Positions 4,747 to 50,564 of a stretch of 64,000 bases of DNA are shown piece by piece (positions within the stretch are counted from its first letter, which is position 1; every line of letters starts with the position of its first letter). The position numbers and the translations under genes are program-made. The stretch comes from Astropecten irregularis. Its lineage: Eukaryota > Echinodermata > Asteroidea > Paxillosida > Astropectinidae. The stretch spans positions 3,658,001 through 3,722,000 of the forward strand of contig OZ020253.1 in assembly GCA_963971285.1 (NCBI GenBank). The letters are read 5' to 3'. The notes beneath the pieces are model-generated. The model worked only from the letters and a program-made list of their open reading frames with translations. It was not told the origin of the DNA and ran no database searches.

Positions 4747-6262
4747 CCAGAGGTTGGGTCGCAACCTGCCAGAGGTTGGGTCGCACCCTGCCAGAGGTTG
4801 GTTCGCAACCTGTCAGAGGTTGGTCCACAACCTGCTTAGGTTGGTCCACGACCTGCCAGAGGTTGGTTCACAACCTGCCTGAAGTTGGCTCACAACCTGC
4901 CAGAGGTTGGGTCGCAACCTGCCAGAGGTTGGGTCACAACCTGCCAGAGGTTGGGCCACAACCTGCCAGAGGTTGGGCCACAACCTGCCAGAGGTTGGCT
5001 CGCAACCTGCCAGAGGTTGGGCCACAACCTGCCAGAGGTTGGTTCACAACCTGCCAGAGGTTGGGCCACAACCTGCCAGAGGTTGGTCCACAACCTGCCA
5101 GAGGTTGGGCCACAACCTGCCAGAGGATGGTTCACAACCTGCCAGAGGTTGGCTCGCAACCTGCCAGAGGTTGGGCCACAACCTGCCAGAGGTTGGTTCA
5201 CAACCTGCCAGAGGTTGGGCCACAACCTGCCAGAGGTTGGTTCACAACCTGCCAGAGGTTGGGCCACAACCTGCCAGAGGATGGTTCACAACCTTTGAGA
5301 GGTTGCTTCACGACCTGCCAGAGGTTGGCTCACAACCTGCCAGAGGTTGGTCCACAACCTTCCAGAGGTTGGGCCACAACCTGCCAGAGGATAGTTCACA
5401 ACCTGCCAGAGGTTGGGCCACAACCTGCCAGAGGATGGTCCACAACCTTCCAGAGGTTGGGCCACAACCTGCCAGAGGTTGGCTCACAACCTGCCAGAGG
5501 TTGGTCCACAACCTTCCAGAGATTGGGCCACAACCTGCCAGAGGATGGTTCACAACCTGCCAGAAGTTGGGCCACAACCTTTGAGAGGTTGCTTCACAAC
5601 CTGCCAGAGGTTGGGCCACAACCTGCCAGAGGATGATTCACAACCTTTGAGAGGTTGCTTCACGACCTGCCAGAGGTTGGGTCGCAACCTGCCAGAGGTT
5701 GGTCCACAACCTTCCAGAGGTTGCTTCACAACCTGCCAGAGGTCTGGTCACAACCTGCCACAGGTTGGTTCACAACCTGCCAGAGGATGGTTCACAACCT
5801 TCGAGAGGTTGCTTCACGACCTGCCAGAGGTTGGCTCACAACCTGCCAGAGATTGGGTCACAACCTTCCACAGGTTGGTTCACAACCTCCCAGAGGTTGG
5901 TTCACAACCTGTCAGAGGATGGTTAACAACCTTGGAGAGGTTGCTTCACGACCTGCCAGAGGTTGGCTCACAACCTGCCAGAGGATGGTTAACAACCTTG
6001 GAGAGGTTGCTTCACGACCTGCCAGAGGTTGGGTCGCAACCTGCCAGAGGTTGGTCCACAACCTGCCAGAGGATGGTTCACAACCTGCCAGAGGTTGCTT
6101 CAAGACCTGCCAGAGGTTGGGTCGCAACCTGCAGAGGTTGGGCCACAACCTGCCAGAGGTTGGTCCACAACCTTCCAGAGGTTGGTTCACAACCTTCCAC
6201 AGGCTGGTTCACAACCTGCCAGAGGCTGGTCCACAACCTGCCAGAGGTTGGTCCACAACCTG
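4747..6262. repeat. 22-bp palindromic minisatellite, about 69 units
   Basis: The consensus unit is CCAGAGGTTGGKYCACAACC plus TG. Each unit contains AGGTTG and CAACCT, and these words pair both within a unit (around variable centres such as GGCCA, GTTCA, GTCCA) and across the unit junction (CAACCTGCCAGAGGTTG). The period is not a multiple of three and the unit lacks stops, so several frames stay open for 200-300 codons. These are not treated as genes. The right part contains a higher-order pattern: a GAGAGGTTGCTTCACGACC variant recurs, in two neighbouring cases 66 bp (three units) apart. Confidence 0.95.
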
Positions 6263-10425: not shown

Positions 10426-10580
10426 AGTCTACTGCATTCAACCTACCCCAGACGGTTACTACTATATGCAAATTCCCCTGCGCCAATTTGCTGCTTCGCT
10501 GAAAAGACTTGATCAACCGTGGTGCACCCTGACCTCCCACAATGCATACCGACATAGCCGCCATGATCGTCCTTCTTTTC
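10426..10580 (+). repeat. Left inverted terminal repeat
   Basis: The outer extension AGTCTACTGCATTCA is followed by a 140-bp core from ACCTACCCCAGACGG to TCCTTCTTTTC. The core is identical to the complement of 16477-16616. The complement of its first 45 bases appears at 16331-16375. Confidence 0.9.
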
Positions 10581-10755
10581 TCAGCGCCGCTATGAAACGG
10601 ACGTGCCCTTTGTGGGCTCTTTCGATTTTCGAGTTTCCGTTTCCCGCTGCTCTTCCAAACTGTATAGACTTGATATTTCTCCTTTTTACTTATCTGATTA
10701 ACCGTTACCAATAAACAGTGTTCTCTTGTGCGTTTGTTTTTGGTATTTTTCTCTC

Positions 10756-10776
10756 TTTTTTTTTTTTTTTTTTTTT
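10756..10776. repeat. T21 homopolymer inside the DIRS-like element
   Basis: An uninterrupted run of 21 T, 176 bp inside the left terminal repeat. Confidence 0.9.
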
Positions 10777-10799
10777 CTTTGTGCATCCTACAGGTACCG

Positions 10800-12799
10800 T
10801 GATCCTACGTCGTCGCGGTCTATACACCTCTACGTGATGCCGGGGTAACACAGCCGGCTCTGTGCTTACGACCCGATGAAAGGCCTATATGCGGGGGGAA
10901 TGGATGAGAGTTTAACCTCATTCCCTCCGCGGTACAGCAAATCGGAATGGCCGAGTTTGGGTTCGTCCCCTCATTCCGGGCTACTGCTGCTACCACTGCC
11001 AGTCCGAAGGAATTCCGGGCGGTTAGATGCTAGGCATGCCTTGAAGGCTACGTGTCTAATTGTCCCGAAGAGGCCTACGGCCGGGGGTAGCTCGATACCA
11101 CGGTCGCTACCAGAGCGGAGGGAGAACGCTCGCTACCGGAGGCGACGAAGGATGCCGCCGCAACGGAATGACTGGCCCGGGCGTAACATGCTCCTTTTGT
11201 TTAGGAAACATTGTTACGACCCGCTCAACAGAGGCTCGCCCCGGATACGTTTTCCGGTCTCCCGAGCCGATATACTAGCTGTCTACGGGTAAGAGCCGTG
11301 ATGACGTGCTTTTGCTCCCCATGTCTGCCGGGCTCGATTGCGGACGTCAGAGAGATGCCCTGTCTGCGTCCAGCCTCCAGTGGTCCTAGCTTTTATTCTG
11401 CACACTCCACGCCTTTGTCCGATGTACAAAGCCTCAGACATCAGTGTATATGAGCAGTGCTACAATCGTACCACCGCTACGCCCGAGCGAACACCATTGC
11501 GGACCTCAGAGAGATGTGCATAGGCTCGAGCAGCCAATGAGCACCGTGACCCCACGTCCATTGTCTGGCTCTACCCAGACGGAAAGCCATGGAGAGTTCC
11601 ATACACGGCTGAACTGCCAGACAGCTACTCCAGCCCGCACCATGCCACCGACTTCAACCCGCTACCATTAGCGGCCTCCAGTCGCCTACACAGGGCACGG
11701 TATGAAGGCTTACCTCGCCGAAGATCATGTGCTATAGCTGTGGGGGTGAGAGAAGCGATATGCCTACCACCCCTCAGTCTGTCGAGCACGATTGCGGACG
11801 TCAAAGGGACGCTCCTTTACTACGTGGCCCAGCCGCAAAGAGCTGAAAGCTTCAGGGGGTCACACACAACAAGACCCCTCAACAGGCCACACGGGGCATT
11901 ACGCACGGCTTTGTTAGCCGCGCTACCAGGCCCCCCTTCATTTGATACATGGATTGTCACACGCACATCCTTGCTATTGTTGGGCTCTCCCCAAGCGGAA
12001 AGATGTGGAGAGATCTACGTACACAGCTGCACGGCCCATCGTCCATACAAGCCAGGTCAACACCGTCGGCTTTGTTCCGTGATGCATCGGCGGCCACAAT
12101 CAGTTGGACCCACTACAGTACATGTATTACACCGACGTCCAGTGACGATTGCCGCCTGGACACGCCCACTTATCTGGCCCTCTCCGCCCAGACCAAGCTC
12201 CATGGCGCAGTGTCTCTTTATTATAATAATAATGGACTCTTTTAATGCGCCGGTATCCGCCAAGCATGACGCTCATGGCACATATCTATTATTATCCTTG
12301 GTCAGCGGGCCACAATTTACAGCATACATGTAATTCTTAGCCCGAGATGGACTTTATACGAGCCTTTTCCGACCATCGCTCAACGAAAGCAGAGAGCCTC
12401 AACGCCTGCACCAACTCAGCCGCAATAGCCCTTTACGCAGCCGAGCCCAGCCGACTGTCACCCTCAGAGTCGGACTGTACCCACGGTCGGACTGTCTCAA
12501 GTCGAGTCGTTCCACTTCCACGGCCGACTTGTCCTGTCCTATCCATACTGGAATCTCACTTCAATCTGCTATACGCTGTACAAGCACTTCGTACTGTACA
12601 TGGATCCCTTCATACTGTCCGGCTTTACTGGAGCGGAAACGATGCCGCCGGCTCGGCCCCAACTGCAGTCGACGCACCTTGGGCCGAGTTGGCCCGCGGA
12701 CGATTTAAGGCTAAACTCTATGCTTCCACGGATGCATTGATGGATAATGCCGGTACTTTCTTCCTCGCGGAGCGGAAAGCTGCTAGGATTCCCATCTGC

Positions 12800-12849
<50 letters not shown>

Positions 12850-15800
12850 GCCCAATGGCCATGCCGGTCCGCACTATGTTCTCGGGCTCGGCCGCTTGCA
12901 GTCGACCTGCTTCATGGCGAGTTGTTCCCAGTCGAGTTGTCCAGTGCCCATGGGCCGATAACGCGTCCTACCTTAGCTCGACGCTATGGAGCGGTAACAT
13001 GTACCCGAGACACGTACACTGAATCATCGTTCACCATCGCTACCGGAACGGGAAACTGCGAGAGTCCACACGCACTGCACGTAACTGTTCAACGACCACG
13101 CATCACTGCACTTCCGGGCGCATTGTACAACCGTCAACATTTACGGCTTGCACACTACTACAATGACTACAGCCAAGACCGCTCCGTGGCTCCACATCGG
13201 TGACCTCGGCGACCCTGGCAGTCATAAGTGTACTACATGTATCCTGTTTGGACGCTGGATAATGAATAGAGTGATAAAGGTGATTAAAATGCGAGCCTGC
13301 ATTGACTCGAAATTCGGCTACCTCACTCGCCACGCATGTTGTCCTGAGGTCAAAGGTCATACATGTGATAATACATGTACATGTTTTATACATGTGATAA
13401 TACTTGTACATGTACTGCTCACCACATAGAGGCCCAAAATATATTGGGTACCGGGAGGTGACAATTCATCCTGATCTTGTTCTACCTCCATGACCTGACG
13501 GTGTTACATAGTCTGAGATGAACCATCACTACTTATCACGCTTGCAACATCTTCGGATCAGCTGACTTCCTCGCCTTCTCTCATCCTTATGCTTTGAAAA
13601 GTGATAAACACTGAACAAAAGTATGGTATAGATTGGAATTTTCCTCCTTCCTTTCTGTCAAATTCTAGTTACATGGCGGCACTTATACAGTACCGAGTCA
13701 CTACATGCCAAGGCAGGGAAGAACCCAGCATGCGTCAACCCAGCCTACCTCCACCGTCAACTCCACAAGCTCCCCGCTCGTTGCGGAATAGCTCCCGTTG
13801 ACGGTTGGCAACAACATTGCAGAACTCCGAAGCACCCCTTTCGGACCTGCGGACTGATTTTCGACGTCCTTGAGGCCTTAAAACCCCCATCGGCGGAAAA
13901 TACAAGGCAATTTTCTTCTCCATCGGCTCTACCCAGGACATTGAAGAATTACCATGAATAGCTGTGGCCACAGTCCCTTCCACGAAGGTCAACATTTCCA
14001 GCTTATCATAACTACCAGTATGGCCGGCTCATGCCAGCCCTCAACACGCTGGCCCCATACCCAATGGGTATGGACCCCGTCGACACGTACCCCGCATCAA
14101 ACAACCTCTGCGAGCATGACCGAAGTCGACTCGGGCCAGCCCAACGGTCCCCAGTTCCTTTCTGCAGATTGCAAACTTGGGGAACACACAGGGAATTCCG
14201 ACGCCTTACGTCTGGCTGTCATTCCACATCATCGGATGAGTAGGTCATCTCTGCCAATGACCTTACACCTGCTGCCACACACAACAAGACACAGTCCAGA
14301 GTTTTCGACTCCTGGTTCCTACAAACCCCTGGAAGATGTCAAAACACCCCGCTCAGGATACCCTTAGCATCCTGAGCCTCGTGGCCCACAGGTCTTTATA
14401 GAGAATGGCAGTGACCCGACCCAACCAGGTCACATTCTCCTGGTATATGTAAACTCGCCCACAACGCCTGGCTTCTCGGCCCAGATCTCGGCGAAGGACC
14501 GAACTACGTGTTCAAATGGTCCACTCGGAGCAACCATTGGACATCACCGACATGACGAACGCTGGACGTCAGTCACATACCCAGCATAGGCGTGAAGTCC
14601 CGACTCCAAGAACTCCAACCCCACTACAAGGATCAACTTGGAATAGTTCCTGGTGAGGTTTGAACCCGTATCGTCCGGACTGGCGCAACGAGTAGGCCGC
14701 CACTCCGTACCAGCAATCGGAACCACAACCACTGTGAGATTCTTAGTAGCCCTGCAACACATATGCCAGCACTCTCAGTTATACCGAGAGCAAGCAAGAA
14801 CATCTACACACCTACTCCTGACCTGTCACCCAGAGCGGATGGGTTGTGCCCCTCTGATCTGCGTCCCTGCCCTGGATCATCCAGGGGACGCCGGCAAGGA
14901 CAACACCTCACTCCACCTTCCACTTCTCGACCGCCAATAACGACCCCACAGGTGGCCGCTGCGACCGAGACACTCGTCTGCCCTCCTACATAGCATGTAT
15001 CATGTACAAGCCATCTTAGGCGCCCCATGTCGCCTCTAAGGACAGTACTGGCAGCGACTTACACCACGCACCGGACACACCCCTTCTCGTGCGTACGGGC
15101 AGGAAACTTCTCACCACCGTCGAGAGGCAAACTAAGGGGCTCGGCCTGGACCAGTTGCGCAATGACCAGTCAATACTACCCGGGCCCGACACCCTCCACT
15201 TCACTTGGCTTGGGGCCTACGGCCCCCAAAACCAACACCCAACACGCTGGACATCATACAAGGACCCTCACAGCGGGGCCTCACAACGAAGCCTCTGTCA
15301 TGGCTACCCGGTGACTGTTTATACCTTCCCCGATGTGGTGCTACGAAGATGCTCCCTCTCCTTCTCCTACTAATACACCACTAACGGCTATGGCGGACCT
15401 CTGCCTACGCACCAGTCCACACCAGGCTCCAAGTTTCTTCTACCCGCAGCTACAGGTCTGCTTGGACTACACACGATGTTTTCGAGGATGGCTCTCCCCT
15501 CTCAACCCATGTGGCCAATGCACACACCTCCTATGGGCCACGTTCTACCGAATGGCCCCTAGCACACTACCGTGCATCTACTAACCTTCCTCCTGTCAGT
15601 GGTTACGCCTACGAGGACCAGTGAAATCAGGGCCCTATCGATAGCTGAATACGCCGGATGCCACACAGCACTCGACTCCTTCCAACCATAGGCTTCCTCA
15701 CCAAAACTGATGCCCTGTCTTCGAGCCACCAGACACCTCTGTATCATCTCGGACATCGCGCTCCGGTGACCCGTCAGGCAAGCTAGGGTGCCACGTCAGG

Positions 15801-16250
15801 GGTCTGATGTGGTACCTAGCCCAATCTAAGGACCTGAGAAGGAACCCCTCTCAGCCCTTCGCCACTACCACGAAGCCCAGCGTCGAAAGTCACGTTTATC
15901 CGCTGGATCGCCTCGACCGTCAAGTTTGCATGCCCAGTCTGCCCATCTAAACCGGGCCAGCAAACCCACTGACACATCAAGACCCAAGATGCGAGAACAG
16001 TACTCGCATCCTGGTCCTATTTCTGAGTTCTGTCATCAGACTTGGACGAGGCAGCATGATGGAAATGTCCCCTCCATTTTCTCCTCTTGCTACCTGAGGG
16101 ACGTCCTGCGGAGCGACTTAACTCATGTACGACAGGAAAATCCTGGCTTCACCGACCTGGAAACCAGGATTCCTTCAGGCCTGCTGACAGATGGGCAAGA
16201 CCTCCACGGAAGCTCTGCCCATGGCGAACTCACGATGGGCATTGTGCCCA
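10800..16250. other. GC-rich interior with no recognisable protein
   Basis: Base composition is visibly richer in G+C and CpG than the flanks. Six frames show only scattered open frames of 60-204 codons. None contains a YXDD-type polymerase box, an RNase H pattern, or the R...HxxR...Y pattern of tyrosine recombinases that I could see. Diverged related segments exist, for example ATTGCGGACGTCAGAGAGAT (11338), a similar one at 11495 and another at 11791. Two CTC-CCAGACGG/CAAGCGGAAAG-type segments lie near 11570 and 11985. The stretch 13205-13440 is AT-richer and holds ACATGT repeats, like host DNA. Confidence 0.6.
12802..12846. repeat. T45 homopolymer
   Basis: 45 consecutive T sit in the middle of the GC-rich interior. 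It produces meaningless poly-phenylalanine in overlapping frames. It could be the complement of a poly(A) tail captured by retroposition into the element. Confidence 0.9.
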
Positions 16251-16330
16251 TTATGCTAACCTGATTCATATCCACCAAACTTTCCTGGCTCTCCATGTAG
16301 CCAGCCCACCACCGTAACTCGGTGCCACTC

Positions 16331-16429
16331 TGCATATAGTAGTAACCGTCTGGGGTAGGTTGAATGCAGTAGACTCTCCCCCACCTGTTGTGGGTTGAGT
16401 CTACTAGTTCATACCTACCCCAGACGGTT
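16331..16429 (+). repeat. Internal complementary region (ICR)
   Basis: Bases 16331-16375 are the complement of 10426-10470 (left terminus). Bases 16376-16429 are the complement of 16600-16653 (right terminus). They abut as AGTAGACT|CTCCCCCACC, so the region records the sequence of a circular junction of the element ends. In DIRS-1-type models this region templates completion of the ends during circle formation. The two halves also share CAGACGGTT cores in inverted order, so the region itself can fold. Confidence 0.88.
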
Positions 16430-16476
16430 GCGTCCCGCCCGTCCTCCCCACTTCTGGCCTCGAGCCTCCTGGCTTC

Positions 16477-16653
16477 GAAAAGAAGGACGATCATGGCGGC
16501 TATGTCGGTATGCATTGTGGGAGGTCAGGGTGCACCACGGTTGATCAAGTCTTTTCAGCGAAGCAGCAAATTGGCGCAGGGGAATTTGCATATAGTAGTA
16601 ACCGTCTGGGGTAGGTATGAACTAGTAGACTCAACCCACAACAGGTGGGGGAG
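16477..16653 (-). repeat. Right inverted terminal repeat
   Basis: A 140-bp core complementary to 10441-10580 is followed by the outer extension 16617-16653, which ends in CAACAGGTGGGGGAG. The unequal extensions of left and right repeats match DIRS-1-like elements. Confidence 0.9.
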
Positions 16654-16974
16654 AATTTTACACGCAAAATGAAAGCAAAAATCGTACTTTCACTCAAAAA
16701 TTCAGGAAATGTTTCCATATAAAAGTTATTTTGACAAATAATGTTTTAAAATCTGATTTATTAAACTGAAAAAAATCTCACTTTGCTATTTTATATGTCA
16801 CAAATCTTACTGAATTGGATGAAAATCTTACTGGTTAGCAGATAGGAAAAAATCACTACTCACACAATAAATACATTTTTTAATACGAAAATGTATTATA
16901 AATCATAGTTGTTGCTAAAATTCAATGGAAAAAGCTATTTGTTTAAGAATATATACAAGTGATAAACTGTTGCA

Positions 16975-41934: not shown

Positions 41935-42485
41935 AATGCAAAACTGAGTTTTGGTTACCGTACAGTAAACCTTTAAACTTGTTACAAGTGTATCAAATAG
42001 AGAAGTGTACCGATATGTCTGTGCACAAAGTGTTTCAATATGAACTACAGTATCACCCCCATGCTAAGATTGTGTTTTGTGAGAACGTCATTGTCTGGCT
42101 TGGTCTTTTGTAAGCTCCAAACCAAATGAAAGGATTGGGTAAAAGGGTCAAAGTAGGGAATTCCCAGCAAACTTTGATTTCCTATCAGTACTGGATGATG
42201 TTTTTTTCAGGACCTATAACTTATGAAGACTTTACCAAATGCATTAACTACAATGTACATGTTTATTCCAATTCCCTTCATTTGTTCATATTATGTCCCT
42301 ATGCAACTTGAACTTTACACAAAACGAGGAAATTCCAGTCTTTACCATACTTTGTACAGTGTTTTTCACTTTTCAATGGCATAAGAGTGAAGTGAAAAAA
42401 GAGGAAATCAGCTGATCCGAGGAAAAGTTGCATGCCTGATTTTAATAAACAAATGATTCATGCACAAATCATGTTATGTGTAACC
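41935..42485. other. Unassigned block, no gene seen
   Basis: No recognised features. A 61-codon frame at 42126-42311 is not supported. Confidence 0.4.
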
Positions 42486-45634: not shown

Positions 45635-46337
45635 AAGACCAGGTATACATAATGAACATTCAAACTCTTACAGTATATATCGCATCCAAGGCCTTCCCAA
45701 TATAACAGTACACAAGAGATTGTAGCAAGTGGAAATGATGGCAATAAATGGTTTCTAAAAATAAGTTTCCAAACTTCTGGAAACAATTACTGCATTTTTT
45801 AAGGATTTTATTAAACGCAAGCAAAGACCTCAACAGTTCAAGACACAAGCCAATCAAGCCACCTTACACAACAGAGTGCCCCAAGACCACGCATCCAGTG
45901 ACATTTACATACAGTACACCCTTGAAGTAAAAAGGCCGTGCATTTGATGAAATGATAATTACAGGCAGGCGTGGTTCTTGTGCTGACTTGACAAGACCTA
46001 TTTCGTAGTATCCAGGGTTGCATTATGATATACACAGGATTTTTTCCCCAACTAATTCCGAGCCGGGAAAATAATTGGATCCTAGGGCTAATGCATCAAC
46101 TGTCAGAGACGCTTAGGGTTAGTGTTTGATGGTACAACCGTGACAGAAAACTACTAACTCACAAGGGTCTACACTGATACTATGCGATATGCTTGAGTGA
46201 CCATCGGACACGTTTCCTCCGAGCTCCTCCAAAAAATCAGTTAAATTCCAGCTCCTTCCTGCTTCCTTGCCTAAGATCAGCAAGACCTACCAGCATATAC
46301 CACCCTGATCCATCGGAACACTATTCTGAAAGACAAA

Positions 46338-47114
46338 ATGCCGGCAGGTAGGAAGAAATCAGTGAAATCCCCTGACAAGCAACCACCAACCCTGTCGCCC
46401 CAGCGTACCGTGACCGGTCCAATGTCTCCGCCGGAACAATGCAGCACTGGCCCCATCAAGTCTGCTGTCATCGACACGGAGTTCCAGCAATTCGTCAAAG
46501 ACGCTTTGTCCGAGATCCGTCATGGCCAAGCAGAGCTCAGTAGGCGACTTGACAGACTGGAGGAGAACTTCGACAGGGCACTTGAGTTTCAGTCCAGAAG
46601 AACAACTGAACTTGAGGACAGGATCAAGGAGCTGGAAAAACTGGTCCCACTGATTGAGCAATCGCAGAAACAGCTTGACGACCACTCAGAAAAACTAAAC
46701 AAACTTGAAAGATTCAGCAGGAGAAACAACCTCAGAGTTATAGGCCATCCACAGGCCCCCAAAGAAGACTGTCTTGCCATCGTCTCCAAGATCCTGCTGG
46801 AGAAATTCAACATGCCGGACGTCAAGTTGGAGAGAGCCCACCGTGATGGCCCAAAGACCCCCGGCCGCCCGCAGCACTTACTGGTCAAGTTCAACTGCTA
46901 CCAAGACAAGGTGAAAGTCCTCCGGACACAACGACAAGTCCTTGCAAACTCCCCCTTCTTCTGTGCGGAAGACCTGACCCATCTAGATCTGCAAGAGAAG
47001 CGCAAGTGGTCTCCACAAGTTTCCAAGGCCTACCAGGAGGGCAAAAGGTACCGCTTCGTGGCTGGTAAGTGGCGGGATTCATCGGGATCGCTTGCTGAGT
47101 TTTATCGAGCTTAA
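46338..47114 (+). CDS. LINE ORF1 protein (L1-ORF1p/Transposase_22-like)
   Basis: 258 aa. The likely role is a nucleic-acid-binding chaperone that coats LINE RNA. Residues 1-45 are basic and proline-rich. About residues 50-128 are rich in heptad-spaced L/I/E/K (RRLDRLEENFDRALEF, ELEDRIKELEKLV), a predicted trimerising coiled coil. Residues 124-136 (ERFSRRNNLRVIG) mark the start of the RRM-like domain known from L1 ORF1p-type proteins, with LERAHRDG at about 164-171. The C-terminal part (FCAEDLTHLDLQEKRKW) fits the family's C-terminal domain. The first ATG gives a complete family-sized protein. ORF2 begins 474 nt downstream, a longer gap than in many LINEs. It could also be called a generic coiled-coil ORF1. 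Confidence 0.85.
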   Translation: MPAGRKKSVKSPDKQPPTLSPQRTVTGPMSPPEQCSTGPIKSAVIDTEFQQFVKDALSEIRHGQAELSRRLDRLEENFDRALEFQSRRTTELEDRIKELEKLVPLIEQSQKQLDDHSEKLNKLERFSRRNNLRVIGHPQAPKEDCLAIVSKILLEKFNMPDVKLERAHRDGPKTPGRPQHLLVKFNCYQDKVKVLRTQRQVLANSPFFCAEDLTHLDLQEKRKWSPQVSKAYQEGKRYRFVAGKWRDSSGSLAEFYRA

Positions 47115-47588
47115 TGCCGGCCTGCCATCCGCATGCTTCCATCATCTTCATACCTACTTCCACCACCATCTCCATACACCTCTGGCTTGACTTTCATCGA
47201 TTTATTTTGCCTATGTTATATTTGATTATGTTCTTTTCTTTGTCTGTTCGCTCATATTTCACTTAACTGATATTCTCTTTGACAAGTTTTTGTTTATATT
47301 TCATTAAATTTATATTATTTTTTGTTTACCACTTTTCGTTTAATACCCGGCTGCTGAATACATCGATACATGTCTTGTTGTCTCACTGCTAATTTTGTTG
47401 TTCACCCCCATTTGCTTTGGATCTCATTTCAGTGGATCTCATAGTGGGACCATAGTTTATTTCTTCATTGCTCGTTCTAGTGTCATTGTCATTTGTTGCC
47501 CATTTGTGACTTTTCTTAGTTGATGTGTTACTCCTTATCATCTGCATATTTGTTTGTTTTTTGTTAACCGTTTCAATTGCATACTTAA
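47115..47588 (+). other. Inter-ORF spacer of the LINE
   Basis: 474 nt, T-rich, with stops in all plus frames and no third ORF. Translation of ORF2 would require reinitiation, an internal entry mechanism or a separate transcript, none of which can be seen directly. Confidence 0.55.
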
Positions 47589-50564
47589 ATGTTTCCTGAT
47601 TTTTTTTCTGATATTCCTTCTAACGATTCTGATGTTGACTCTCATGATAACTGTTGCGATTATTATGACTTTGCTGATTTTAATAATTTGAATATTTCCA
47701 GCCCAGGTGTCTTCTCTATATTTTATTTGAATGCCAGGAGTCTCTGTAGACACTTCTCTGACGTCCAAGATTTTGTGGCTACTCTTGATCACCCTTTTAC
47801 GATCTATGGGTTCACTGAAACTTGGTTTAAAGAAGCTCCTCCACCGTATGTTCATATGGATAACTACCATCTTGTTCACTCATCTCGATCATCAAAACCC
47901 GGTGGAGGGGCAGCCATGTTTATAAGCAGCTCGCTGTCATTCCACATTCGTGACGATCTCTGGTCTTCACACAATGACATTGAAACAGTCTTTGTTGAAG
48001 TCCAGAGAGAAAAAGCCTGCAATTTGATTGTGGGTACTGTCTACAGGGCTCCTGGTACTCCTATTGACCTGTTTAATGACACCTTCCAATCATGTCTTGA
48101 TAAGATATCGAGGGAGGGTAAACAGTGTTACATAATGGGTGATTTCAATCTCAATCTGCTCAATTGTGCAGATCATCGACCCATTGATGACTTTGTTAAC
48201 ACCACATTTGCCAATGGCTTTCATCCTTTAATCACCAAACCTACCCGCATTACACCCCACTCTGCCACCTTAATAGACAATATACTAACTAACTCCGAGC
48301 TTGATACAACTGCTGGCATTCTTTATTCTGATATCTCTGATCATTATCCATTGTTTCAAGTCACTCCTTCATTCTTTCAGAATACTGCGACTAGAAGGAA
48401 GCCTTTTCTTACCAGGGATATCAACCTCACATCCTTAAACTCCTTCAGACACGATATTGGCCGCATTGACTGGAGTGATGTCTACGAATCGTTAGATCCA
48501 GACACTGCATATGATAGATTTCTTTCAATCTTTTCCTCTCTGTACAATCAGCACTTTCCTCTCACATTGAAAACACCGGGTGACCGTCGAACTAGCAGGA
48601 ATCCGTGGATCACCCAATCTATCATGCAATCTTGTCTTTTCAAAAACAGGCTGCACCGTCGCTTCCTTCGCAATCCCTCTGAGGACAACGAACGCCATTA
48701 CAAGACCTACCGTAATATTCTTACCACCACTATCCGTTCTGCCAAGAAACTATATTATGAAAAGAAACTTGCCCAGATGAAAGGTGATACCAAACGTTTA
48801 TGGCGTGAGATTAACGGACTTCTTGGTAAGAGGAAGCGGGATACTCCTCCTGATACTTTCACCGATGGTGATAGCCACTTATCTTCCCCTCAACTGATTG
48901 CAAATTCCTTCAATAAGTTCTTCACTGAAATTGGATCCTCTCTTGCTAACAAAATTCCCCCTACTAATACACACTTTACAGATTCACTGCACGATCCAAT
49001 AACATCTACCTTTTTCCTTACCCCTACTAACAAACAAGAAATTCTGAAGATCGGTAGCGAGTTAAAGAACAGCCGTAGTTCCGGCTTCGACGATATTAGT
49101 ACCGCTGTTGTCAAGTTTGTTCTTCCTGAGATCTCTGATATTCTCTGTCATATTTTCAATCAATCTTTCCTTACCTCAAATGTTCCTCGTAATCTCAAGG
49201 TCGCCAAGGTCATTCCCATATTCAAACAGGGTGATAGGCAGCACATCAATAACTACAGGCCCATCTCAATCTTGCCTTGCTTTTCAAAAATCCTCGAGCG
49301 TCTTGTTTTCACTCGTCTTTCTAGCTTTCTTTCTCGTTTTCATATTCTTTCTGAGAAGCAGTTCGGCTTCAGGTCCAATCACTCCACTGACATGGCTATT
49401 ATCGAACTGGTTGATCGTATTAATGATGCGTTCATTAATAAATCCTCTGCCATTGGTGTTTTTATAGACCTGTCAAAAGCTTTTGACACCATCAATCATG
49501 ACATACTTCTTTCCAAGCTTTCTCATTATGGTATCAGAGGTCTTCCTCTCCAGTGGATTGCCAGCTATCTATATGACAGATTTCAATATACATCCATCCT
49601 TAAGTTTGACTCAGAACGACTCCGTATTCACCATGGCGTACCTCAAGGTTCCATTCTTGGACCACTTCTGTTCTTACTTTACATCAATGACCTCCAATTT
49701 TCTTCTTCTATCCTAAATTTCACTCTCTTTGCCGACGATACCACTATTTTCTATTCCAATTCAAACCTTACTTCTCTTTTTGAGACAGTTAATAATGAAC
49801 TTATTTCTGTTTCATCTTGGTTCAAAGCAAATAAGCTCTCTTTGAACTATACCAAAACCAGCTTTATTTTCTTTAGTAAGTCACATCTTCCAACAGACAT
49901 CATCTTGCCTCCCCTACAAATTGACAACATCTCCATTGCCAGGGTCTTCTCTACCAAATTCCTGGGTGTTACTATCGACCACACACTCTCTTGGACGCAG
50001 CATATTTCCTCCATCACTAAGACCACTTCTCGCAACACCGGTGTCCTTTCAAAACTTCGCTTGTTTCTGCCTAATTCTTCTCTGATTTTGCTCTATAACA
50101 CTCTCATTCTTCCCTACATCAATTATTGCAACATTGTTTGGGCACGCACCAGCAAAACTAAGCTCCACTCACTACAAACCATACAAAAAAGGGCTGTCCG
50201 TGTCTGCACATCCTCACATCCCTTAGAGCATTCTCTCCCTCTATTTGCACAAATGAACACCCTTACTCTCACTGACATCAATATACTTCAAACTGGCATC
50301 TTCATGTACAAATACACTCACAATCTTCTTCCTAGGACATTTTCCTCATACTTCACAACTGTTCAGGATATACACAACTATCACACTAGATCTCGAAACA
50401 ATCTCTATGTTCCTTTCACTCGCACCCATTATTCTAGTAATACCCTTCGATTCTACGGCCCTCGCCTTTGGAATACCATCCCAGACAACATTCGTTCAAT
50501 GTCATCTGTGGGTCGATTCAAATCTTCTTACAGACGCGCCCTTATCTCCCAGTATGTAACATAG
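47589..50564 (+). CDS. LINE ORF2: APE endonuclease and reverse transcriptase
   Basis: 991 aa. It would nick target DNA and copy the LINE RNA by target-primed reverse transcription. N-terminal AP-type endonuclease signatures: FYLNARSL (N48), TETW (E77), GDFN (D185, N187), SDH (D251, H252). Reverse transcriptase signatures: NYRPISILPCFSKILE (555-570), EKQFGFRSNHST (589-600), IDLSKAFDTINHD with aspartates 627 and 633, VPQGSILGPLLFLLYIND (684-701), FADD (714-717). The C-terminus (about 950-991) includes LRFYGPRLWNTIPDNIR, common in CR1/L2-class proteins. I see no RNase H domain. It starts at the first ATG in frame and no internal stop is present. L2 and CR1 clades cannot be separated without a tree. 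Confidence 0.93.
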   Translation: MFPDFFSDIPSNDSDVDSHDNCCDYYDFADFNNLNISSPGVFSIFYLNARSLCRHFSDVQDFVATLDHPFTIYGFTETWFKEAPPPYVHMDNYHLVHSSRSSKPGGGAAMFISSSLSFHIRDDLWSSHNDIETVFVEVQREKACNLIVGTVYRAPGTPIDLFNDTFQSCLDKISREGKQCYIMGDFNLNLLNCADHRPIDDFVNTTFANGFHPLITKPTRITPHSATLIDNILTNSELDTTAGILYSDISDHYPLFQVTPSFFQNTATRRKPFLTRDINLTSLNSFRHDIGRIDWSDVYESLDPDTAYDRFLSIFSSLYNQHFPLTLKTPGDRRTSRNPWITQSIMQSCLFKNRLHRRFLRNPSEDNERHYKTYRNILTTTIRSAKKLYYEKKLAQMKGDTKRLWREINGLLGKRKRDTPPDTFTDGDSHLSSPQLIANSFNKFFTEIGSSLANKIPPTNTHFTDSLHDPITSTFFLTPTNKQEILKIGSELKNSRSSGFDDISTAVVKFVLPEISDILCHIFNQSFLTSNVPRNLKVAKVIPIFKQGDRQHINNYRPISILPCFSKILERLVFTRLSSFLSRFHILSEKQFGFRSNHSTDMAIIELVDRINDAFINKSSAIGVFIDLSKAFDTINHDILLSKLSHYGIRGLPLQWIASYLYDRFQYTSILKFDSERLRIHHGVPQGSILGPLLFLLYINDLQFSSSILNFTLFADDTTIFYSNSNLTSLFETVNNELISVSSWFKANKLSLNYTKTSFIFFSKSHLPTDIILPPLQIDNISIARVFSTKFLGVTIDHTLSWTQHISSITKTTSRNTGVLSKLRLFLPNSSLILLYNTLILPYINYCNIVWARTSKTKLHSLQTIQKRAVRVCTSSHPLEHSLPLFAQMNTLTLTDINILQTGIFMYKYTHNLLPRTFSSYFTTVQDIHNYHTRSRNNLYVPFTRTHYSSNTLRFYGPRLWNTIPDNIRSMSSVGRFKSSYRRALISQYVT

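Follow-up and report, generated by a model that had tools for sequence, protein, structure and literature searches.

A high-copy family of 6.2-kb gene-less elements with DIRS1-type ends in Astropecten irregularis, very probably mobilized in trans

LARDs and Dasheng-type elements are large non-autonomous LTR elements that carry kilobases of non-coding interior, reach many copies and are moved in trans. In the DIRS order, TOC1 of Chlamydomonas is a kilobase-size element that lacks its own reverse transcriptase (RT) and has PAT-like split direct repeats. The model of DIRS replication, in which an internal complementary region (ICR) serves as a splint, a circle is closed and a recombinase inserts it, rests on anatomy and on circular cDNA (Dictyostelium mutant). 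The need for the ICR is counted among the outstanding tests in the available part of one source (PMC5633606). According to the available sections of another, the inverted terminal repeats (ITRs) and ICRs of DIRS1-like elements share a core of at least 10 nt (PMC3266345). SIRE, a non-autonomous version of VIPER in Trypanosoma cruzi, measures about 185 + 30 + 220 bp and is composed for the most part of segments from its autonomous partner (excerpt of PMC6681497). No large gene-less DIRS1-like family appeared in open-access titles and the starts of abstracts, where “non-autonomous DIRS” and its variants gave no match, and a Repbase entry is possible.

The element described here occupies positions 10426 to 16654 (6,229 bp) of a 64,000-nt window, that is, the whole stretch of Astropecten irregularis DNA that was analyzed. 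Searches of the 475.7-Mb host assembly, in which all genome counts are lower bounds, indicate that it very probably belongs to a high-copy family of large non-autonomous elements that have DIRS1-type ends, were active recently and are moved in trans.

The element is bounded by a perfect inverted repeat of exactly 140 nt, at 10441-10580 (plus strand) and 16477-16616 (minus strand), as a preliminary description of the locus had reported. Outside this repeat lie, on the left, a 15-nt divergent arm (10426-10440, plus strand), the complement of which is copied in the internal region, and, on the right, 38 nt (16617-16654) consisting of a 15-nt divergent arm (16617-16631) and a 23-nt extension (16632-16654), both on the minus strand, the sole match of the extension being the right internal region. 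The outer extensions had been given as 15 and 37 bp; the left value stands, and the right one fell a base short, the end having been placed at 16653. The interior of about 5.75 kb (10581-16330), which has no recognizable genes and is common to the family copies, is followed by a 99-nt ICR on the plus strand and a 47-nt spacer (16430-16476) leading to the right repeat. The left half of the ICR (16331-16375) matches the reverse complement of the element's first 45 nt (10426-10470) exactly, and the right half (16375-16429) does so for the last 55 nt (16600-16654), with the base at 16375 common to both halves and marking the circle junction; the earlier reading of this region as a fusion of the complements of both outer ends thus proved accurate. 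Complementarity to the element ends breaks off at the adjoining base on every side, and the observed 1-nt overlap of the two halves is consistent with 3 nt if the middle base is free. A 17-nt core, ACCTACCCCAGACGGTT, is present in four places, namely, both repeats and both ICR halves. The locus therefore displays the DIRS1-like terminal architecture that had been proposed for it: ITRs with conserved and divergent parts, paired ICRs overlapping at the circle junction, a core of at least 10 nt in ITRs and ICRs, and a right extension matched by the right ICR only. The element contains no long direct terminal repeat, such as would mark a LARD, and no split direct repeats of the Ngaro, PAT or VIPER type; it has inverted repeats and an ICR instead.

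The GC content of the element is 53%, versus 39 to 41% in the flanks, and at 14001-16000 of the interior the GC skew is −0.22 and −0.24, with more C than G on the plus strand in the absence of a coding signal. A dispersed host repeat is embedded in the interior (13535-13674, minus strand) and is 78% identical to window positions 42301-42440; a related stretch is also found outside the element, at L047:7221-7366. The window copy further contains a T45 homopolymer peculiar to it (12802-12846) and a T21 run (10756-10776). T runs of at least 12 occur in none of the 16 other full-length copies, and the 10 subfamily A copies other than the window copy (see below) lack 14 nt at the T21 site and 39 nt at the T45 site; the runs reflect either slippage in the window copy or an assembly artifact. 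Elsewhere in the window, at 4747-6262, a 22-bp tandem repeat of 69 copies is open in several frames.

An internal-junction pattern with up to two mismatches matched the assembly at least 108 times, compared with 0 for the reversed control, and a two-core ICR pattern did so at least 141 times, in some cases in tandem, with 0 for its control. The left terminal repeat gave at least 592 first-look candidates; among the 40 of these that were scored, 32 showed 100% identity over 159 to 160 nt, the window's own included. For a 1.9-kb piece of the interior there were at least 236 candidates, 40 of which were scored; they yielded 42 matches, including 35 that are full length, at 95 to 100% identity. 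ICR places are spread over 22 contigs, and some cluster, e.g., at C8:30.22-30.29 Mb. The terminal-repeat sequence was not found in collections of plasmids, bacterial genomes and viruses.

Thirty loci (L001 to L030, of which L012 is the window itself) were picked by identity to the window's left repeat, a choice that biases the set toward low terminal diversity. Interior sequence is present in all 30, extending beyond element position 1,460 in 29 and for 704 nt in L022; L010 and L021 share the interior in several pieces, and L016 does so with a gap. Among 20 longer stretches, all drawn from these loci, 16 hold full-length copies in addition to the window copy, and these are collinear with it apart from indels, so the search for copies sharing the interior that the preliminary description had proposed was productive. 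The remaining four comprise a copy that runs off its stretch and contains an insert (L043), a 3.95-kb diverged derivative (L047), a 704-nt fragment (L048) and a copy without its right end (L050). Pairwise substitution divergence among the 17 full-length copies is 0.1 to 3.4%, and they form subfamily A (11 copies including the window copy; 0.1 to 1.9%) and subfamily B (six copies; 0.5 to 3.2%), with 2.4 to 3.4% between the two; the window copy differs from the 16 others by 0.4 to 3.3%. The flanks are unrelated: among 29 left flanks, no pair except L013/L014 reached 26 of 40 identical bases. The near-identity of copies in unrelated flanks agrees with the recent replication suggested earlier. The 40-nt left flanks of L013 and L014 are identical, and some copies were thus duplicated in place.

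The interior is 93 to 99% identical among the full-length copies examined and 76 to 91% identical in the older lineage, L047. It can therefore be considered the family's own long-standing body and not a load acquired by a single copy, which leaves the “foreign cargo” invoked in the preliminary description without support. No DIRS domain was detected in 65 stop-free pieces of L047 (longest, 194 aa), and the L047 interior has genome matches that span the query at 78 to 89%; the gene-less state thus appears older than the recent burst.

At G000:C10:16076872-16077149, at least three ICR junctions lie in tandem with a spacing of 98 nt, and there the ICR seems to have expanded into an array. The 704-nt left fragment at L048:6750-7466 has a hybrid terminus, in which the left divergent arm is followed by the right extension, joined at a shared AGTAGACT. 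Two ICR junctions at G000:C28:5300395 (plus strand) and 5300663 (minus strand) are 268 nt apart in opposite orientation.

The ends and the ICR covary between subfamilies A and B. Ten of the 11 subfamily A copies end in GGGGGAGA and have CTCTCCCCC in the ICR; in L034 and the six subfamily B copies, the ends carry a G run and the ICRs a C run. In 16 of the 17 copies, the left end does not differ from the left ICR over a compared length of 44 nt, and the right end and right ICR show no mismatch in the aligned stretch, again in 16 of 17, with the proviso that in L041, L042, L045 and L049 the aligned stretch is shortened to 46 to 53 nt by the run, and differences are possible outside it. This matching is natural evidence of coupled sequences and would lend support to a splint or template model in which the ends and the ICR are copied from each other.

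The copies have sharp ends. On the left, 16 of the 17 full-length copies start with AGTCTACTGC and L040 starts with GGTCTACTGC; on the right, differences are confined to the terminal G run and beyond. Since 25 of 29 left ends begin with A, the insertion site is not strict. Flank repeats never exceed 2 nt in the 17 copies, and there is accordingly no target-site duplication in this set. For example, L037 makes a clean break in an array of 22-nt tandem units, which allows AGT to be read at either end of the copy. Flanking bases were tallied in 28 left and 17 right flanks (L022 was dropped for its hybrid end and L014 as a duplicate of L013). In the right flanks, T occupies position +2 in 14 of 17 (p = 3e-5), which makes the site A-N-T, and position +4 likewise in 14 of 17 (p = 3e-5); in the 28 left flanks, A occurs 22 times at −8 (p = 2e-7) and 21 times at −7 (p = 1e-6). 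These bases would reflect a weak, inverted preference of the recombinase for its target, the first such preference for the enzyme involved. Insertion at a 3-nt site without target-site duplication is in line with DIRS1-like elements, and similar middle-base differences, CTT/CAT and GTT/GAT, are seen in Table 3 of PMC3266345, which was available in part.

The interior was then examined for genes. Six-frame translation of 10586-16330 gave 108 pieces free of stops and at least 36 aa long, in which RT, RNase H, methylase and recombinase had no Pfam match at an E value of ≤0.5; the best of 17 scattered matches was to a domain of unknown function (E = 0.0047). The Pfam scans covered the window copy, the 65 pieces of L047 and a 341-aa frame of L035, for which no fitting domain was found. 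A tblastn comparison of a tyrosine recombinase (YR) of the same genome with the element reached an E value of 0.17 at best, two interior frames tested against a large protein collection had no homologues, and an Rfam search of the window returned only a tRNA. The preliminary description, which had reported an interior without RT, RNase H, methyltransferase or recombinase, had allowed for a decayed RT or YR in that interior and for termini that occur only as independent MITEs; the profile and tblastn searches revealed no such remnant, and the copies share the interior along with the termini.

Signs of coding capacity were sought at the level of composition and variation as well. The three plus-strand frames of the interior hold 151 stops, a deficit against the 196 expected from a dinucleotide model, and the three minus-strand frames hold 237. 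The longest open stretch of the window copy, 269 aa, exceeds the 95th percentile of the model (210 aa), and the same plus-strand region is open for 341 to 344 aa in some copies and broken in other near-identical ones; no selection on this frame was detected. Three-base periodicity is absent, with Fourier values of 0.3 to 2.1 across windows of the interior versus 2.8 to 7.2 in a LINE ORF of the same 64-kb window. A mutual-information measure was uninformative and was left out, its values for two host control stretches being higher than for the LINE. A synonymous excess reached p = 0.0016 at best among 582 windows, and nothing survives the number of windows. A 147-aa frame in which 14 of 21 changes are synonymous, against 6.5 expected (17 copies), was dropped as a candidate for constrained coding when 27 copies gave p = 0.08. 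Taken together, we infer that the interior evolves without detectable protein constraint. APOBEC-like editing was rejected, as singleton C>T (82) and G>A (58) changes are about equally frequent per base (40.9 versus 39.2 per 1,000); 69 of these 140 changes are in a CpG context, and the pattern looks like ordinary CpG decay. The LINE-like element itself lies at window positions 46275-50561 and consists of a 279-aa frame and then a 991-aa frame, the latter with an RVT_1 match over the cutoff and an endonuclease match below it.

DIRS machinery is present elsewhere in the genome. At least 12 Dam methylase matches were found, 4 of them over the curated cutoff; three Dam frames are free of stops (852 to 937 aa), and a YR ORF lies 1.2 kb downstream of a Dam match that is below that cutoff. 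One locus, L051, carries an intact recombinase frame, with at least 99 recombinase matches to it in the genome; its 3′ side, the single other DIRS-order 3′ end read, shows no similarity to the element ends. Phage_integrase matches number at least 147, some of them on small contigs that look bacterial. Strong phage-integrase matches are on contigs C66, C72, C76 and C161, which are probably bacterial sequence in the animal assembly.

A helper with the same ends was sought around the ICRs. The ICR matches listed (100 of 108, 50 of 141 and 59 of 59), merged within 60 nt, give 168 places. Comparison with 244 recombinase matches yielded two within 9 kb of a listed place, both on the opposite strand, and none of 12 Dam matches was within 9 kb of any of the 168. 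One place, on C21, has a recombinase remnant beyond its right end. On C15, an ICR junction at 19803895 (minus strand) is about 5 kb away from a recombinase match at 19808941-19809741 (plus strand); this match would be in reverse orientation and lie inside, or beside, a full-length copy. Thus, the full-length autonomous DIRS element with matching termini for which the preliminary description had suggested looking was not found among the 168 listed ICR places. Such a partner may have diverged ends, be absent from the assembly or have been missed.

Other explanations of these data can be weighed against a non-autonomous DIRS-type family. The element might be autonomous in a new way, with proteins that profile searches miss or that are spliced from small exons. 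The open frame of 341 to 344 aa in some copies, the deficit of plus-strand stops and the synonymous changes in the 147-aa frame among 17 copies all favor this; yet codon periodicity is lacking, the two tested frames have no protein homologue, the 341-aa frame of L035 fits no Pfam domain, the synonymous signal fades with 27 copies, and the long frame is broken in near-identical copies, which together make this explanation improbable. It is very unlikely that the family multiplies as a DNA circle without reverse transcription, in the manner of a DNA-only tyrosine-recombinase element. The circle-type junction and the lack of target duplication are recombinase features, and the RNA intermediate is itself a deduction, but an ICR with complements of both ends, and ends that track it, constitute the DIRS1-type arrangement, and we know of no DNA element with such an ICR.

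The window copy, considered alone, could pass for a dead autonomous DIRS element whose genes decayed beyond recognition after insertion, and its 6,229 bp fall within the DIRS1-like range of 3,974 to 6,283 bp given in the available part of PMC3266345. We hold this to be extremely unlikely: the 140-nt repeat and the 99-nt ICR are perfect, yet no gene is left, and the notion is refuted by the 16 further full-length, collinear copies at 0.4 to 3.3% from the window copy in unrelated flanks. Segmental duplication or satellite spread, in place of transposition, might account for the identical left flanks of L013 and L014 and for ICR clusters such as that on C8; for the family as a whole it is refuted by the ICR places on 22 contigs, by the sharp copy ends and by the dissimilarity of all other left-flank pairs, and its probability is close to nil.

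The preferred reading is, then, that of a non-autonomous DIRS derivative, as first surmised for this locus: the cis signals are intact, genes are lacking, and copies are many. Since a non-coding interior is common to many copies, movement most likely relies on the enzymes of another element, and the absence of RT, RNase H, methylase and recombinase when these were searched for sets the family apart from DIRS1-like elements proper. The element works like a DIRS element in cis. The proteins of a different DIRS element would take up the element's RNA (or cDNA), and the ICR, as splint or template, would bring the two ends into contact. A circle would be closed, with a junction complementary to the sequence at 16375; in this junction, the right end is predicted to adjoin AGTCTACTG. 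The circle would next be inserted at an A-N-T trinucleotide (AGT in the circle) by a tyrosine recombinase provided in trans, with a putative preference for AA 7 to 8 nt to the left of the site and, to its right, for T at +2 and +4.

More tentatively, the family might be a lasting gene-less DIRS-type lineage with no end-sharing partner, about 6 kb of non-coding DNA that parasitizes DIRS machinery and has retained its own interior across some 20% divergence. The recombinase on which it relies would then need little beyond the 17-nt core and the junction, or an unrecognized enzyme set would take its place; we consider this scenario possible, with the balance tilted against it. A natural element that retains the repeats, the extension and the ICR but has lost all recognizable genes gives an indication of the parts sufficient in cis, and the family suggests that DIRS elements can be parasitized by large gene-less derivatives.

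Among the known systems, LARDs and Dasheng-type elements resemble this family in a shared kilobase-scale non-coding interior between intact terminal signals, in many copies and in movement in trans, which is deduced here; the present element differs in its DIRS-type inverted ends and ICR, its presumed tyrosine-recombinase integration and its lack of LTRs. TOC1 is likewise of kilobase size, of the DIRS order and without its own RT, but it is an algal element with PAT-like split direct repeats, whereas inverted repeats and an ICR are found here. Of the non-autonomous relatives of tyrosine-recombinase retroelements that were found, SIRE is the nearest (PMC6681497, available in part); it is short and assembled mainly from pieces of its partner, in contrast to a 6.2-kb element with its own interior and no partner found. 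DIRS1-like elements, as described in the available part of PMC3266345, share the divergent and conserved ITR parts, the right extension, the ICR on the 3′ side, the lack of target duplication and the 3-nt junction, and differ in that no gag, RT/RNase H/methylase or YR is recognizable here. The junction is AGT in this element, with ends that are mostly A-N-T, whereas 23 of the 28 elements in Table 3 of that source begin and end with NTT. In dimensions, the likeness extends to SkoDIRS2 of Saccoglossus kowalevskii, for which the same portion of PMC3266345 gives 6,283 bp and terminal parts of 15/142/27, compared with 6,229 bp and 15/140/23 for the element described here.
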